DNA of 64,000 bases from Chryseobacterium gleum (GCA_945883565.1 CAMCXO010000011.1:1-64000), one strand, 5' to 3'. Shown: positions 34,484-40,000, counted from the first letter of the stretch. Notes: generated from the letters alone by a model not told the origin. Made by a program: numbers and translations.

Positions 34484-34513
34484 TTTGCACGAACAAAAGG
34501 GGCTATATATTTG
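34484..34513 (+). promoter_or_regulatory. Promoter of the HmuY-TonB receptor operon
   Basis: TTTG (34484-34487), 18-base spacer, TATATTTG (34506-34513): the best full match to the Bacteroidota TTTG/TAnnTTTG promoter seen in this window. Predicted leader is about 40 nt to the ATG at 34559. No Fur-like palindrome was recognised. Confidence 0.65.
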
Positions 34514-34558
34514 TCCATACTTAGAATTAGTCTAATTAAAAACAAAAAATACCAACTC

Positions 34559-35791
34559 ATGAAGCGGTTTCTACTGTCTAATGTCTTACTGTTATTAACC
34601 TGGACATCTAACGCCCAACAACAGGTCAATGTTTCCATGGGAGCAAGCTACGGTAACGAAGTGTACTATTCATTCCAAAATGGCTTAGCCAAAATTGAGC
34701 CTATTAATAATTGGGATTTAGCCTTTACGGTTCGTGCTTTGGACGCTAGTATTCGAATAAATGATATGCGAGGTATAAGGGCTTTCTTGGCTTCAAACAA
34801 CTCAAACGATTGGAATAACTTGGATACTAACGGCATGAGGGCTTTTGAATTAAACAACAGCACTGAAAGCTGGGAATTCGGTGCTTTGGCAAATTTAGGC
34901 ACGAATCATCCTGATTATGGTTGGGGTGTTTACAACATGGTTACCCATGACGTAAATGGAAGTCGAATTTTTGTTCTCCAACTCGCAGATGGCTCTTTTA
35001 AAAAGTTCTTTGTGGAAAGTATGACGGCCAACCAGATTTTTACCTTTCGTTTGGCCAATCTTGATGGTTCTAATGTAGTAACCAAAACGGTTAACAAAAC
35101 AGATTATACCGGTAAGAACTTTTTCTACTACGATATCGCCACGGATTCTTTTTTGGATAGAGAGCCTGTTTCGTCTAATTGGGACATGGTTTTCAAAAGG
35201 TATTTAAGTCCAATACAGGCTGGTCCTGCTGTGGTTTGGTACCCGGTTATGGGCGTTCAAACCAATATTGATGTTTCTAGTGCGCGCGTAGAGGGTATGG
35301 TGCCTAATGTGGTCGACAGCGCAACTTACGTTCGCAATACCAATGACATTTCAAGAATTGGTTCAAATTGGAAGAGCTTCAACAACGCCACTTTTCAATG
35401 GACTGTGTATGATACGTTATCGTATTTTGTAAGCAGCCGTTTAGGTGGTGTTTATCAGTTGGTGTTTAATGGTTTTGGTGGAAGTTCTAATGGGGATATT
35501 GCTTTCATTCAAAGCCCAAACAATGGGGTTGGTTTAGATGAATCAAAGCGCTTTTGGATGAACATATTCCCAAATCCGGCAGAAGATTACTTATACATAA
35601 GTTTTAGACAAGATTTAACTTATGGAACAGTAGAGCTGGTTGATATTCAAGGAAAAGTTATGTTGAAAGAGATTGTTCATCAAGGTGAAATGCGTCGATT
35701 TGACCTCACTCAGCTAAAAAATGGGATGTACGTTTTACGACTTAGCAGCGAAGGCGATACCCATATTCAGAAGATTGTTGTTCAAAATTAA
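34559..35791 (+). CDS. Secreted HmuY-like protein with T9SS type A sorting domain
   Basis: 410 aa from MKRFLLSNVLLL, a signal peptide cut near SNAQ; the frame opens 48 bases earlier without function. Two WD-x-x-F units (NNWDLAF near residue 45, SNWDMVF near 205) and the pattern IGSNWKSF...GVYQLVFNGFG resemble HmuY-family heme-binding proteins. The last ~75 residues (NIFPNPAEDYLYI...GMYVLRL) form a T9SS type A domain, so the protein is exported across the outer membrane. Clearly homologous to the lipoprotein two genes downstream. Proposed role: surface capture of heme or a similar ligand for the adjacent receptor. Confidence 0.78.
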   Translation: MKRFLLSNVLLLLTWTSNAQQQVNVSMGASYGNEVYYSFQNGLAKIEPINNWDLAFTVRALDASIRINDMRGIRAFLASNNSNDWNNLDTNGMRAFELNNSTESWEFGALANLGTNHPDYGWGVYNMVTHDVNGSRIFVLQLADGSFKKFFVESMTANQIFTFRLANLDGSNVVTKTVNKTDYTGKNFFYYDIATDSFLDREPVSSNWDMVFKRYLSPIQAGPAVVWYPVMGVQTNIDVSSARVEGMVPNVVDSATYVRNTNDISRIGSNWKSFNNATFQWTVYDTLSYFVSSRLGGVYQLVFNGFGGSSNGDIAFIQSPNNGVGLDESKRFWMNIFPNPAEDYLYISFRQDLTYGTVELVDIQGKVMLKEIVHQGEMRRFDLTQLKNGMYVLRLSSEGDTHIQKIVVQN

Positions 35792-35803
35792 AACCGGTTT
35801 TCA

Positions 35804-38002
35804 ATGGCCAAAAAATGGCTGTTCTGCGCATTAATTATTGTAAGCGGGTTGTCTCTTTGGGGACAAACCGCTTCGCTTGAAATTTTAGATTCTGATAATG
35901 CTGAGCCCATTGAGTTTGCGCATGTTTTGGTCAATAGTCTGAAAGGCAAAAAATTATTCGTAGCCGATGTAAATGGACGGGTCTTAATCCAAGAATCGCA
36001 AGCTGTGAAGGTTTTAGTGACTTTTGTTGGCTACGAAAGCCTGCAAGACAGTTTGCTTCCGGGTCAAAACAAAACAGTTCGATTAAAGCGAGGTGATTAT
36101 AAGTTAAACGATGTGGTGGTAACAGCTCAGTATATGCCTACCACTGTCGGTGAATCGGTATTAAAGGTTGACGTTATTCAACGCGAACGTATTGAGGCCA
36201 AAGGCGCTTTTACTTTGAGTCAACTGCTTAACGATAGGCCAAATTTACGTCTTCAGACTGATGGGGTTTTAGGCACGAGTTTGCGAATGCAAGGTATTTC
36301 TGGTGAAAATGTCAAAGTATTAATTGATGGAGTACCTGTTATTGGTAGATTGAATGGTAATCTCGATTTGAATCAGCTCAATTTAAACGATGTCGAGCGA
36401 ATTGAAGTGGTTGAAGGGCCGGTATCGGTCAATTACGGATCGAACGCTTTGGCAGGAGCCATTCAAATAATAACCAAAAAACCAGATCAGGATAAAATTC
36501 AAACAGCTGCCCAATTGTTTTATGAATCTGTTGGGGTGTACAATACCGATGCTTGGCTTAGTTTGCCAATTTCTAGAAAACAAGCATTGAAGCTTCAAGC
36601 TGGTCGAAATTTTTTTGATGGCTGGAGCGCTGTTGATACTGGGCAACGAAGACAGGAATGGAACCAAAAAGAACAGATTTTTGGCACTGCTAATTATTTT
36701 TGGAATGGCCTTAAATGGCAAAACGATTTGTACGTCAGGGGTTTTCAGGAAATTATAAAAGATAAAGGCGACAGAAGAAGTATTTTTTCAGATTTTGCTT
36801 TCGATAATTGGTTTACCACATATCGTTTGGATGCTAGGCATACAGCCAGTTATAAATGGAATGAAGAGAAGCGTTTCGATGTGGTAAACGCTTACAACCT
36901 TTTTAGGCGCGATAATGTGCAGTATAATCGAAACCTCGTAAATCGAACCCAGGAAATTAATCCAGATAAGGGAGCCCATGATACCACTTTGGCCACAACT
37001 GTTTTATCGCGCGGTACATACAGCGTTTCTCCGAAGTCGAAGAAAATTGGATACCAAATAGGGTATGAGTTTTTATACGAGACAGGAAGTGGGGGACGAA
37101 TTGCCGGGAACTATCAAAGCCTTGGCGATTATGCGGTTTTTGGCAGCCTAAAGTATAAACCTTTTTCTCATTGGGTAATTCAACCGGCTTTAAGGGTAAC
37201 ATACAATACCGCTTTCGTGGCACAACCGGTTCCAAGCTTTCACTTCAATTACCATCCTGGTAATAGGTTCAACTTGAGGGGTTCATATGCTCGTGGTTTT
37301 AGAGCACCAAGTATAAAGGAATTATATCTCGAGTTTATTGATGCTAATCACAATATTGTTGGTAATCAAAGCCTTCAACCAGAATATGCCCATCACGCCG
37401 ATTTAAGTCTGAAATACAAACTCATTCAAAACAAAAAAATGCATGAGTTAAGTTTAGAACCCTCTCTATTTTTTAATCGGCTGAATAATTTGATCGACTT
37501 AGCCATGGTAAGTGGTACTCAATTTAGCTATGTAAATGTTAACCAAATGCAATCGGCTGGAGGGAGGTTGGATTTAATTTATTCTATTCATCCCGATTTT
37601 AATTTCAGACTGGGTTATTCGGCCCTTCATCAAGTTTTTCAAACTGAAAATGCAGAAGCCGATTTTTTCAGTCCTGAATACACTTTTGGATTCGATTATT
37701 GGCGTCCAAGTAAACGATTTGGATTTATGGCCAGCTATAAATTTACAGGTGCCAGTCCTCAGGTTCAATTAAATAATGAGGAAGTTCGTATTGCTGAACT
37801 TGAATCATACCATTGGCTTGATGTTTCGTTTTCTCAAAAGCTTTGGAAGAATAGAATTATCTTGACAGCAGGTGCACGCAATTTATTTGACGTTACCCAA
37901 TTATTAGGTTCGGGAAGTGGGGGTGTACATGGTGGGGGAGGTAGTATGCCACTTTCTTGGGGAAGAAGCTTTTTTACAGGTATTAAAATACAATGGCCAT
38001 GA
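35804..38002 (+). CDS. TonB-dependent outer-membrane receptor
   Basis: 732 aa. Signal peptide (ends LSLWGQ), carboxypeptidase-regulatory-like beta sandwich (~residues 24-100), then plug domain (DVVVTAQYMP, LIDGVPVIGR, IEVVEGPVSVNYGSNALAGAI) and a 22-strand barrel region containing GFRAPSIKELY and ending GIKIQWP. The TonB-box-like position is around residues 103-110. The gene lies 12 bases after the T9SS HmuY-like gene and its end overlaps the HmuY lipoprotein gene by 10 bases, so ligand is probably heme or a related compound. Energised by TonB-ExbBD; a tonB gene lies at 57212. Confidence 0.9.
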   Translation: MAKKWLFCALIIVSGLSLWGQTASLEILDSDNAEPIEFAHVLVNSLKGKKLFVADVNGRVLIQESQAVKVLVTFVGYESLQDSLLPGQNKTVRLKRGDYKLNDVVVTAQYMPTTVGESVLKVDVIQRERIEAKGAFTLSQLLNDRPNLRLQTDGVLGTSLRMQGISGENVKVLIDGVPVIGRLNGNLDLNQLNLNDVERIEVVEGPVSVNYGSNALAGAIQIITKKPDQDKIQTAAQLFYESVGVYNTDAWLSLPISRKQALKLQAGRNFFDGWSAVDTGQRRQEWNQKEQIFGTANYFWNGLKWQNDLYVRGFQEIIKDKGDRRSIFSDFAFDNWFTTYRLDARHTASYKWNEEKRFDVVNAYNLFRRDNVQYNRNLVNRTQEINPDKGAHDTTLATTVLSRGTYSVSPKSKKIGYQIGYEFLYETGSGGRIAGNYQSLGDYAVFGSLKYKPFSHWVIQPALRVTYNTAFVAQPVPSFHFNYHPGNRFNLRGSYARGFRAPSIKELYLEFIDANHNIVGNQSLQPEYAHHADLSLKYKLIQNKKMHELSLEPSLFFNRLNNLIDLAMVSGTQFSYVNVNQMQSAGGRLDLIYSIHPDFNFRLGYSALHQVFQTENAEADFFSPEYTFGFDYWRPSKRFGFMASYKFTGASPQVQLNNEEVRIAELESYHWLDVSFSQKLWKNRIILTAGARNLFDVTQLLGSGSGGVHGGGGSMPLSWGRSFFTGIKIQWP

Positions 38003-38976
38003 GGGTATTTTTTGGTTTTGTCATGTTTTGTGTTTTGTTGTCATGCGAAAAAGAAGAGCCGTTTTATTCACCGGCTAAAAAAGGTCAGGTTGTAGCCGGA
38101 ATGGGCAAAGATTACAGATCCAGCTTGTATTATAATATTGAAAATGGCATTTTTGTTAGAACCCATGATTACGATATTTACTCATTGTCTTTCAGCTCAG
38201 AATCAAATGACTCAGCCATTTATTTGAATGGAGCCAATTTTATGTTCGTTAAATCCACTCTTGATACCAATTTTGCTGAGGTTAAAGACACCGTTTATCC
38301 TGGGAAATGGTTATACGATTATCCTTCGGGCGTAAGCCATAGAACTGCGCTAAAAGATTGTTTAACAAAAGAAGGCGTGCCAAGTAGGTTGGTTTATGTA
38401 GTGGATTTGGGTTTTGATGTACAAAAGCAAAAGCTGCCTTTTGTTAAGTTTCAATTGATTGATATTACAGAGAATTCGTATCTAATAAAATACGCCGAAT
38501 TACCCAATGGGCCGGTTCATGTGGCGGTTATCAACCGAACGCCGTCCTATAGACGTGTGATGTATGACATGAGAACGCATCAACAACATTTGGTTGAACC
38601 ACCAAGCAGTGAGTGGGATTTTCATTTTACTCAGTATACTGATTATGATATTATGGACAATGGCGATACTTTGGCGTATTTAGTGCGAGGGGTTTTGATG
38701 GATGGTAATAAATGGTCGGTTGCTAGAAGCAACGAGTTGGATTGGAATAGATTAGAATCAGACGATCTCGTAAATCTGCATTATTCTTCTAACCAAAATG
38801 CCATTGGTTACGATTGGAAGTATTACAGTTTTGAAACTGCTACATATCAAATAACCGCTGGTCGTATTTATTCATTGTATTCACCGCAATTTGGGTATTA
38901 CGCTATTAGATTTGTAGATTATTACAATAGTTTAGGAGAAAGAGGTTATGCCGCTTTTGAAGTAAAGGGATTTTAA
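37993..38976 (+). CDS. HmuY-family lipoprotein
   Basis: 327 aa, signal with lipobox VLLSC (Cys18 counting from the ATG at 37993; a second ATG at 37999 is equally good). The C-terminal half fits the HmuY family: SSEWDFHFTQYTDY, LVRGVLMDG, NAIGYDWKYYSF and YYAIRFVDYYNSLGERGY. Family members bind heme at the surface and pass it to a TonB receptor. The N-terminal half (YYNIENG...LSFSS...AIYLNG) repeats the pattern seen in the T9SS homologue upstream. Translationally coupled to the receptor. The heme-ligand residues cannot be assigned by eye. Confidence 0.82.
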   Translation: MAMRVFFGFVMFCVLLSCEKEEPFYSPAKKGQVVAGMGKDYRSSLYYNIENGIFVRTHDYDIYSLSFSSESNDSAIYLNGANFMFVKSTLDTNFAEVKDTVYPGKWLYDYPSGVSHRTALKDCLTKEGVPSRLVYVVDLGFDVQKQKLPFVKFQLIDITENSYLIKYAELPNGPVHVAVINRTPSYRRVMYDMRTHQQHLVEPPSSEWDFHFTQYTDYDIMDNGDTLAYLVRGVLMDGNKWSVARSNELDWNRLESDDLVNLHYSSNQNAIGYDWKYYSFETATYQITAGRIYSLYSPQFGYYAIRFVDYYNSLGERGYAAFEVKGF

Positions 38977-38988
38977 AAGTGAATTGAA

Positions 38989-39669
38989 TTGGGGAAAAAT
39001 AAACTCAAAAGGTTTGCAGAAAATCAAAGGTTTGAACACGTTGTTGAGCCCAAAAGGGAAGAATTACAATCTGATTTTGATTTAAAAGGGCATTGGAACG
39101 ACAAGGTATTTAAGAACCCAAATCCTATAACACTGGAATTAGGTTGTGGAAACGGGGAATACACAGTTGGGTTGGCCCAACAATATCCTGAAAGAAATTT
39201 CATAGGAGTAGATATAAAAGGCGCTCGAATTTGGCGTGGAGCAAAAACCGTTGAAGAAAATGAAATAGGCAACGCAGCCTTTTTGAGATGCCAAATAGAG
39301 ATGCTTCCGCAGGCTTTTGCGCCAAATGAAGTGAGTGAAATTTGGATTACTTTTCCAGACCCACAAATTAAGTTCCGAAGGCAAAAGCATCGGCTTACTC
39401 ATCCGCATTTTTTACGCATTTACCAAAGTGTGCTCGGAAAAGAAGGATTGGTGCACCTTAAAACCGACAGTGAGTTTTTACACGGCTACACCCAAGGAAT
39501 ATTATATGCGTACGAACAGGAGATTTTAGAAGCTTATTTTGATATTGATTTTCAAGTTCAGCACGAAAATTCTCCGCTTAAAACCATACAAACCCACTAC
39601 GAAAAACTATTCAGGAAGGAAGGCAAAGCCATTACATATATAAAGTTTAAACTTCCAAATGCCTTCTGA
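38989..39669 (+). CDS. trmB: tRNA (guanine-N7-)-methyltransferase
   Basis: 226 aa. Start is TTG at 38989: the encoded MGKNKLKRFAEN is the conserved Bacteroidota TrmB N-terminus and no ATG lies nearby. SAM-binding motif LELGCGNGEYTVGLA, then NFIGVDIKGARIWRGA and the signature ITFPDPQIKFRRQKHRLTHP. Methylates G46 of tRNAs to m7G. Twelve bases after the HmuY lipoprotein gene and overlapping the alkyltransferase-like gene by 11 bases, so it may be read through from the receptor operon. Confidence 0.93.
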   Translation: MGKNKLKRFAENQRFEHVVEPKREELQSDFDLKGHWNDKVFKNPNPITLELGCGNGEYTVGLAQQYPERNFIGVDIKGARIWRGAKTVEENEIGNAAFLRCQIEMLPQAFAPNEVSEIWITFPDPQIKFRRQKHRLTHPHFLRIYQSVLGKEGLVHLKTDSEFLHGYTQGILYAYEQEILEAYFDIDFQVQHENSPLKTIQTHYEKLFRKEGKAITYIKFKLPNAF

Positions 39670-40000
39670 TTTATACCGACGTATTTACGATGTGGTTAGG
39701 TGTATTCCGGCAGGTCGAGTGTGCACCTATGGGGCAATTGCCGAGTTTTTAGGGAGCAAGGGCGCTGCCAGAGTGGTTGGCTATGCCATGAATGCGGCCC
39801 ATCAATATCGAGATGTTCCTGCACATCGGGTGGTAAATAGAAACGGAATTTTAACAGGTAAGCATCACTTTCAAGATGCATTCGCCATGCAGAGATATTT
39901 AGAAGAAGAAGGAATAGAAGTGCTTAACGATCGGGTGGTTGATTTTGAAAAGCACTTCTGGAACCCTTGTGAGTATTTGCGACGATCTGATTTTCTTTAA
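39659..40000 (+). CDS. Alkyltransferase-like protein (ATL), Cys-less MGMT homologue
   Basis: 113 aa, the DNA-binding domain of O6-alkylguanine alkyltransferases: helix-turn-helix with RVCTYGAIAEFLG and arginine-finger region GAARVVGYAM. The acceptor motif PCHRV reads VPAHRVV, with Ala55 in place of the alkyl-accepting Cys. Family knowledge: ATL proteins bind O6-alkylguanine and hand it to nucleotide-excision repair instead of repairing it directly. uvrC lies in the same window at 17071. Overlaps trmB by 11 bases. Confidence 0.88.
   Translation: MPSDLYRRIYDVVRCIPAGRVCTYGAIAEFLGSKGAARVVGYAMNAAHQYRDVPAHRVVNRNGILTGKHHFQDAFAMQRYLEEEGIEVLNDRVVDFEKHFWNPCEYLRRSDFL

Follow-up and report, generated by a model that had tools for sequence, protein, structure and literature searches.

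In Porphyromonas gingivalis, the HmuY/HmuR system couples a capture protein of the HmuY family to a TonB receptor with a FRAP-like motif; HmuY consists of one module and binds haem via His134/His166. The HmuY-like protein HfpY of Flavobacterium psychrophilum also binds haem and is encoded in one operon with the receptor HfpR, yet the locus holds a single HmuY-like protein, a DoxX gene lies between the two genes, and no T9SS partner is described (PMC9331221). In Flavobacterium columnare, C6N29_01035 is a T9SS-secreted HmuY, which combines PF14064 and a Por_Secre_tail in one chain. Its deletion left growth and virulence unaffected; the protein was studied alone rather than in a receptor-flanking pair, and module number and order are not discussed (PMC9618737).

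The Iht system of P. gingivalis (IhtA/IhtB) comprises a chelatase-like lipoprotein that adjoins a TonB receptor, as a CbiX-type lipoprotein does in six relatives of the locus described below. However, the published description calls IhtB CbiK-like and includes no HmuY protein in the system (PMC10913741), whereas no such chelatase gene lies in the window. RhuH, a haemophore of Riemerella anatipestifer, likewise stems from the Flavobacteriales and is of similar size, yet it has a different fold (8XJC) and is exported by vesicles (PMC11967795). Kinship to RhuH was set aside, since neither sequence nor fold searches returned it.

The window, i.e., the whole stretch of DNA that was analysed, comprises 64,000 nucleotides from Chryseobacterium gleum. 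Judged by its sequence, we consider it rather probable that three adjacent genes form a cassette for the uptake of haem (iron-porphyrin), whose T9SS-exported protein and lipoprotein would capture the ligand and whose receptor would import it. Like HmuY/HmuR, the locus combines HmuY-family proteins with a TonB receptor, but here the receptor has a double-module protein on either side. A T9SS-exported HmuY and the combination of a receptor with a HmuY-like protein, known separately, are joined here in one conserved cassette, and HmuY proteins with two modules occur widely among Bacteroidota beyond the studied pathogens. No description of paired HmuY proteins around one receptor, of a double-module HmuY or of a permuted haemophore was found in the open-access literature.

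Layout of the cassette and export of the flanking proteins

The three genes are read from the + strand: the gene for the T9SS protein is followed, after a gap of 12 nt, by the receptor gene, which overlaps the lipoprotein gene by 10 nt. The T9SS-exported double HmuY protein (34559-35791, 410 aa) starts with a signal peptide read by eye (~34559-34615), continues with HmuY module 1 (34619-35095; PF14064 alone 23.3 bits, E 7.8e-5) and module 2 (35096-35524; 19.4 bits, E 0.0012), and ends in a type A T9SS C-terminal sorting domain (35564-35782; PF18962, TIGR04183). The first ~67 residues of module 1 are termed the A unit. The TonB-dependent receptor (35804-38002, 732 aa) matches PF00593 and PF07715, and the lipoprotein (37993-38976, 327 aa) is again a double HmuY protein, with module 1 at 38077-38532 and module 2 at 38533-38973 (PF14064 alone 21.8 bits).

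A Bacteroidota-type promoter-like site precedes the T9SS gene (34484-34513, + strand). It is read from the sequence as a consensus match only and consists of TTTG (34484-34487), 18 nt and TATATTTG (34506-34513); this promoter type has a spacing of 19-21, so that the site is one base short. Since a TTG at 34511 falls within the -7 box, the ATG at 34559 is the likelier start of the T9SS protein. A search of Rfam gave no match at the cassette. Upstream and divergent lies a glycosyltransferase-like gene (PF13528; 33416-34435, - strand), which also occurs upstream of the cassette in the relatives L061, L062, L063 and L066. On the other side, the lipoprotein gene is succeeded after 12 nt by trmB and an alkyltransferase-like gene (38989-40000), downstream neighbours seen in near relatives only; the cassette promoter perhaps also drives these two genes.

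An earlier sequence-only reading had claimed a common set of motifs, homology of the two flanking proteins and two different export routes, all of which hold up. The coordinates given for the genes are right, and the motifs are present in both proteins and pair, in the order T9SS protein/lipoprotein, as YYSFQNG/YYNIENG, WDLAF/YSLSF, ASIRIN/AIYLN, SSNWDMVF/SSEWDFHF and IGSNWKSF/IGYDWKYY. A pairwise BLASTP comparison of the two proteins is better than chance (E = 7e-8), and profile-profile alignment (hhalign, local mode) matches the N-terminal halves with E = 7e-25 and the C-terminal halves with E = 6e-36. Because each half of one protein pairs best with the corresponding half of the other, the module was duplicated before the split between T9SS protein and lipoprotein, which form two clades in the tree with 100% support.

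The export routes are marked by a T9SS sorting tag on one protein and a lipobox on the other. In the T9SS protein, Por_Secre_tail scores 54.1 bits against a cut-off of 27; together with the signal peptide, the sorting domain and a T9SS in the genome, where the translocon protein SprA is encoded, this is the profile of type A cargo. The lipobox Cys18 (38044-38046) is invariant in 57/57 lipoprotein relatives. In the window it is followed by EKEE, and among the relatives K occupies position +3 after the Cys in 45/57 and D/E position +5 in 57/57. This resembles the K-(D/E)2 type of signal by which flavobacteria export lipoproteins to the surface, and the lipoprotein is probably exposed on the cell surface.

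In the proposed mechanism, the T9SS protein would be placed beyond the outer membrane, released or attached to the surface, and capture haem there. The lipoprotein would reside beside the receptor on the surface, where it might bind haem too or seat its haem-loaded partner, and the TonB receptor would take haem via its FRAP/His516/NxxL region into the periplasm. The fused HmuY pair could offer two pockets per chain or one composite pocket. We infer haem binding and a cooperation between the two capture proteins; a passage of haem from the T9SS protein to the lipoprotein and on to the receptor would be a guess.

A serious rival to this mechanism dispenses with a diffusing scavenger: both HmuY-like proteins might be standing surface subunits of a three-part receptor complex, forming a lid or docking pair. 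We regard this as a credible reading, somewhat short of probable, because of a switch in export route. In four Bacteroidales, the orthologue of the T9SS protein (L129:6171-7157, L136:6126-7181, L137:6204-7187 and L158:6192-7187) has a lipobox in place of the sorting domain, and in the tree all four group within the T9SS clade. Since the route switched and membership of the cassette was kept, the T9SS partner can be argued to act at or near the cell surface, and free diffusion of this partner is apparently not needed everywhere. The partners are, moreover, kept together phylum-wide, and type A sorting domains can give surface attachment, as a standing complex would have it. Yet the T9SS route is retained in nearly all lineages, and the HmuY of F. 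columnare is reported to be secreted by this route (PMC9618737), which both speak against a standing complex.

Conservation in Bacteroidota and a circular permutation

A single T9SS-protein sequence as query retrieved no related loci, and one genome per species in GTDB was therefore scanned with the core alignment, yielding 155 relatives. The best 80 were examined; a contig end truncates 7 of them, leaving 73 informative ones. Of these 73 (from the best 80 of 155), 61 have the three genes on the same strand with the T9SS gene first, then the receptor gene and then the lipoprotein gene, 4 show the order receptor, lipoprotein, T9SS protein, and in the remaining 8 the examined stretch showed no receptor or no lipoprotein gene. 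The association of both HmuY proteins with one TonB receptor, described in the sequence-only reading, is supported, and most relatives also show an overlap of a few bases between the receptor and lipoprotein genes. According to their record titles, the carriers belong to the Flavobacteriales, Bacteroidales, Chitinophagales and Cytophagales. In the host family, 20/88 genomes match the T9SS protein strongly, most with adjoining receptor and lipoprotein genes; in some other families of the order, the receptor and lipoprotein genes remain paired, and the T9SS gene either lies nearby in divergent orientation or is absent.

The latter pattern bears on the role of the T9SS protein, which might be a redundant extra copy in an ordinary Hmu-type system where receptor and lipoprotein suffice. 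Flavobacterium-like genomes indeed carry receptor and lipoprotein genes without an adjoining T9SS gene; with their receptor and HmuY-like protein, these loci may correspond, by gene order only, to hfpR-hfpY. The loss of the T9SS-secreted HmuY without a phenotype in F. columnare (PMC9618737) points in the same direction. Redundancy nevertheless seems unlikely to us, since the T9SS protein is better conserved than the lipoprotein (68% versus 47% to the nearest relative) and its gene is retained next to the receptor phylum-wide.

The neighbourhood of the cassette varies. In six genomes, the gene for a lipobox-bearing chelatase of the CbiX type (PF01903) lies between the T9SS gene and the receptor gene (L087:1743-2648, L103:3099-4058, L119:7493-8434, L122:7515-8468, L123:7549-8502 and L130:2090-3040), followed by a PepSY-like membrane protein gene in those examined. 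The CbiX-type lipoprotein is a possible haem or cobalt chelatase of the surface or periplasm. DUF6607 (PF20311), which has no assigned function, is a repeated neighbour at 17 loci (including L067:3708-4631, L072:1895-2860 and L078:5018-5962), often alongside genes for DUF2271, PepSY-flavodoxin and ankyrin-repeat proteins; these four are candidates for haem or iron handling. Near-identical cassette proteins occur in L160 and L154 (titled Azovibrio and uncultured Bacteroides) and in L144 and L124 (Chlorobiota and Bacteroidetes), pairs that probably reflect mis-binned or mis-named metagenome assemblies.

In one lineage of the host family the T9SS protein is circularly permuted. Nine distinct sequences (L068, L069, L070, L071, L072, L073, L074, L075 and L077), including one from an Owenweeksia genome, are without the 67-residue A unit at the N-terminus and carry it C-terminally, just before the sorting domain, where it matches with 43-58 bits (E 1e-14 to 3e-19). 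The permuted proteins constitute one clade with 100% support. As this clade is nested among unpermuted proteins, the permutation happened once, and the unpermuted order, as in the window, came first. No protein was seen to carry the A unit at both ends, as an intermediate would, and the lipoproteins of the permuted-clade genomes are not permuted. An assembly or fusion artefact was ruled out by the number of distinct sequences, three of which are in single-contig chromosomes, by their continuous frames and by the single clade.

Circular permutation normally needs chain ends that meet in the fold, and we predict that those of the double module do so. More tentatively, and as a possibility rather than an expectation, the cassette may represent a system of two haemophores spread over the phylum: a double HmuY secreted by the T9SS and another anchored by a lipid would pass haem serially to one receptor, and the two modules would fit together with meeting chain ends, which let one lineage permute the secreted partner with its function kept. 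The relatives offer natural experiments on how haemophores are exported (T9SS tag versus lipobox) and on protein topology (natural circular permutation).

Receptor signature, haem status of the host and the likely ligand

Haem or another iron-porphyrin is most likely the ligand of the cassette. This view is well supported but indirect, and derives from the HmuY family, the receptor signature, a host apparently unable to synthesise haem and the chelatase context in relatives. The receptor carries FRAP (FRAP499; 37298-37309, + strand), His516 (37349-37351) and GNxxL, the motif of haem receptors, and both His516 and His709 (37928-37930) are invariant (87/87). The genome yielded matches to 15 receptors, of which only the flanked one carries the FRAP/His/NxxL signature. 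The FRAP/NxxL motif has been described in haem receptors, where the results of mutagenesis vary (PMC9331221). The best NCBIfam models of the receptor are haem/haemoglobin subfamilies, at scores well below cut-off (TIGR01785 and TIGR01786, 124 and 133 bits versus 317 and 324). The receptor may thus work like a haem receptor, yet it is not filed in these two subfamilies.

Markers of haem synthesis are missing from the host. ALAD and ferrochelatase were not found in the host genome (99.4% complete), in four congeners (G033-G036) or in three other cassette-bearing genera (G024, G025, G087), and the host genome contains two haem-copper oxidase genes. The whole host genus is probably haem-auxotrophic, which suggests a life on scavenged haem. 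The idea that the cassette simply tracks the loss of haem synthesis was rejected, because several genera that lack the pathway are also without the cassette: the small-genome genera of the host family have neither ALAD nor ferrochelatase, and the cassette is mostly absent from them. Most permuted-clade genomes have both enzymes.

The residues that might hold haem differ from those of P. gingivalis HmuY. A single His is conserved in the T9SS protein, His130 in module 1 (34946-34948, + strand; His in 86/89), which in a W-anchored alignment is not on the column of HmuY His166. The lipoprotein shows no conserved His, and the His166 column is without His there. Other members of the HmuY family use Met, and a missing His does not exclude haem ligation. 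In a further difference from the Hmu system, the host genome yielded no CobN/HmuS-type gene.

These residues also feed the proposal that the cassette handles another metal complex of TonB receptors, namely a corrinoid, another porphyrin or a siderophore. The lipoprotein does not conserve the haem ligands of HmuY, the receptor matches the B12 receptor model as well (117 bits), and the CbiX family includes cobalt chelatases. That haem subfamilies are nevertheless the best models of the receptor, that the haem-receptor motif is present and that the host combines haem-dependent oxidases with a lack of haem synthesis markers make such a ligand unlikely. The reading as a haem-uptake cassette is testable in a cultured carrier, Crocinitomix catalasitica ATCC 23190 (L128).

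Membership of the HmuY family

For the assignment of the flanking proteins to the HmuY family, the sequence-only reading had proposed a profile search and structure prediction, and it had also suggested that each protein is a tandem of two domains. With PF14064 (Pfam gathering cut-off 27 bits), the T9SS protein scores 29.7 and the lipoprotein 27.4 bits, and both pass. These scores are marginal; relatives reach 35-56 bits. A PF14064 search of whole genomes missed both window proteins in their own genome and gave no match in any control, and was not counted as evidence. Profiles built from the relatives retrieve solved HmuY proteins from the PDB: 57 lipoproteins match 8b6a (4.5e-10), HmuY 3h8t (1.5e-5), 3u22 (0.0012) and 4gbs (0.003), and 59 T9SS proteins match 8b6a (1.2e-5) and HmuY (0.005) amid matches to the sorting domain.

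The tandem arrangement is borne out by halves that match PF14064 singly. Among relatives of the T9SS protein, the N-terminal half alone matches in 12/20 and the C-terminal half in 15/20; for the lipoprotein, the figures are 16/19 and 19/19. In the window lipoprotein, the C-terminal half alone matches and the N-terminal half alone does not. The two halves of the T9SS protein also align with each other in a profile alignment, at 94% probability compared to at most 1.2% in 30 column-shuffled controls.

Both proteins are modelled by AlphaFold2 with high mean pLDDT values (T9SS protein 91.6, lipoprotein 94.5), and comparison with the PDB favours the HmuY fold for the lipoprotein. The outcome that would have spoken against the sequence-only reading, two proteins without any resemblance to HmuY in fold, was not observed. 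The ten best matches of the lipoprotein model all belong to the HmuY family (Foldseek probability 0.93-1.00), at TM-scores of the target of only 0.34-0.41, as expected if a single-module HmuY target is spread over two fused modules. The T9SS-protein model yields a weak match only, with PinO at rank 15 (E = 2e-3, probability 0.91), in an output dominated by the sorting domain and long beta proteins; its HmuY assignment appears to lean more on sequence than on fold. The evidence from predicted folds is overall favourable but not complete. That the pair are merely convergent beta proteins matched by chance, as the marginal PF14064 scores in the window, the low TM-scores and the rank of PinO might suggest, is very improbable, given that four half-proteins each match PF14064 independently across relatives, that the lipoprotein model finds HmuY proteins throughout its ten best matches and that both family profiles reach solved HmuY structures.
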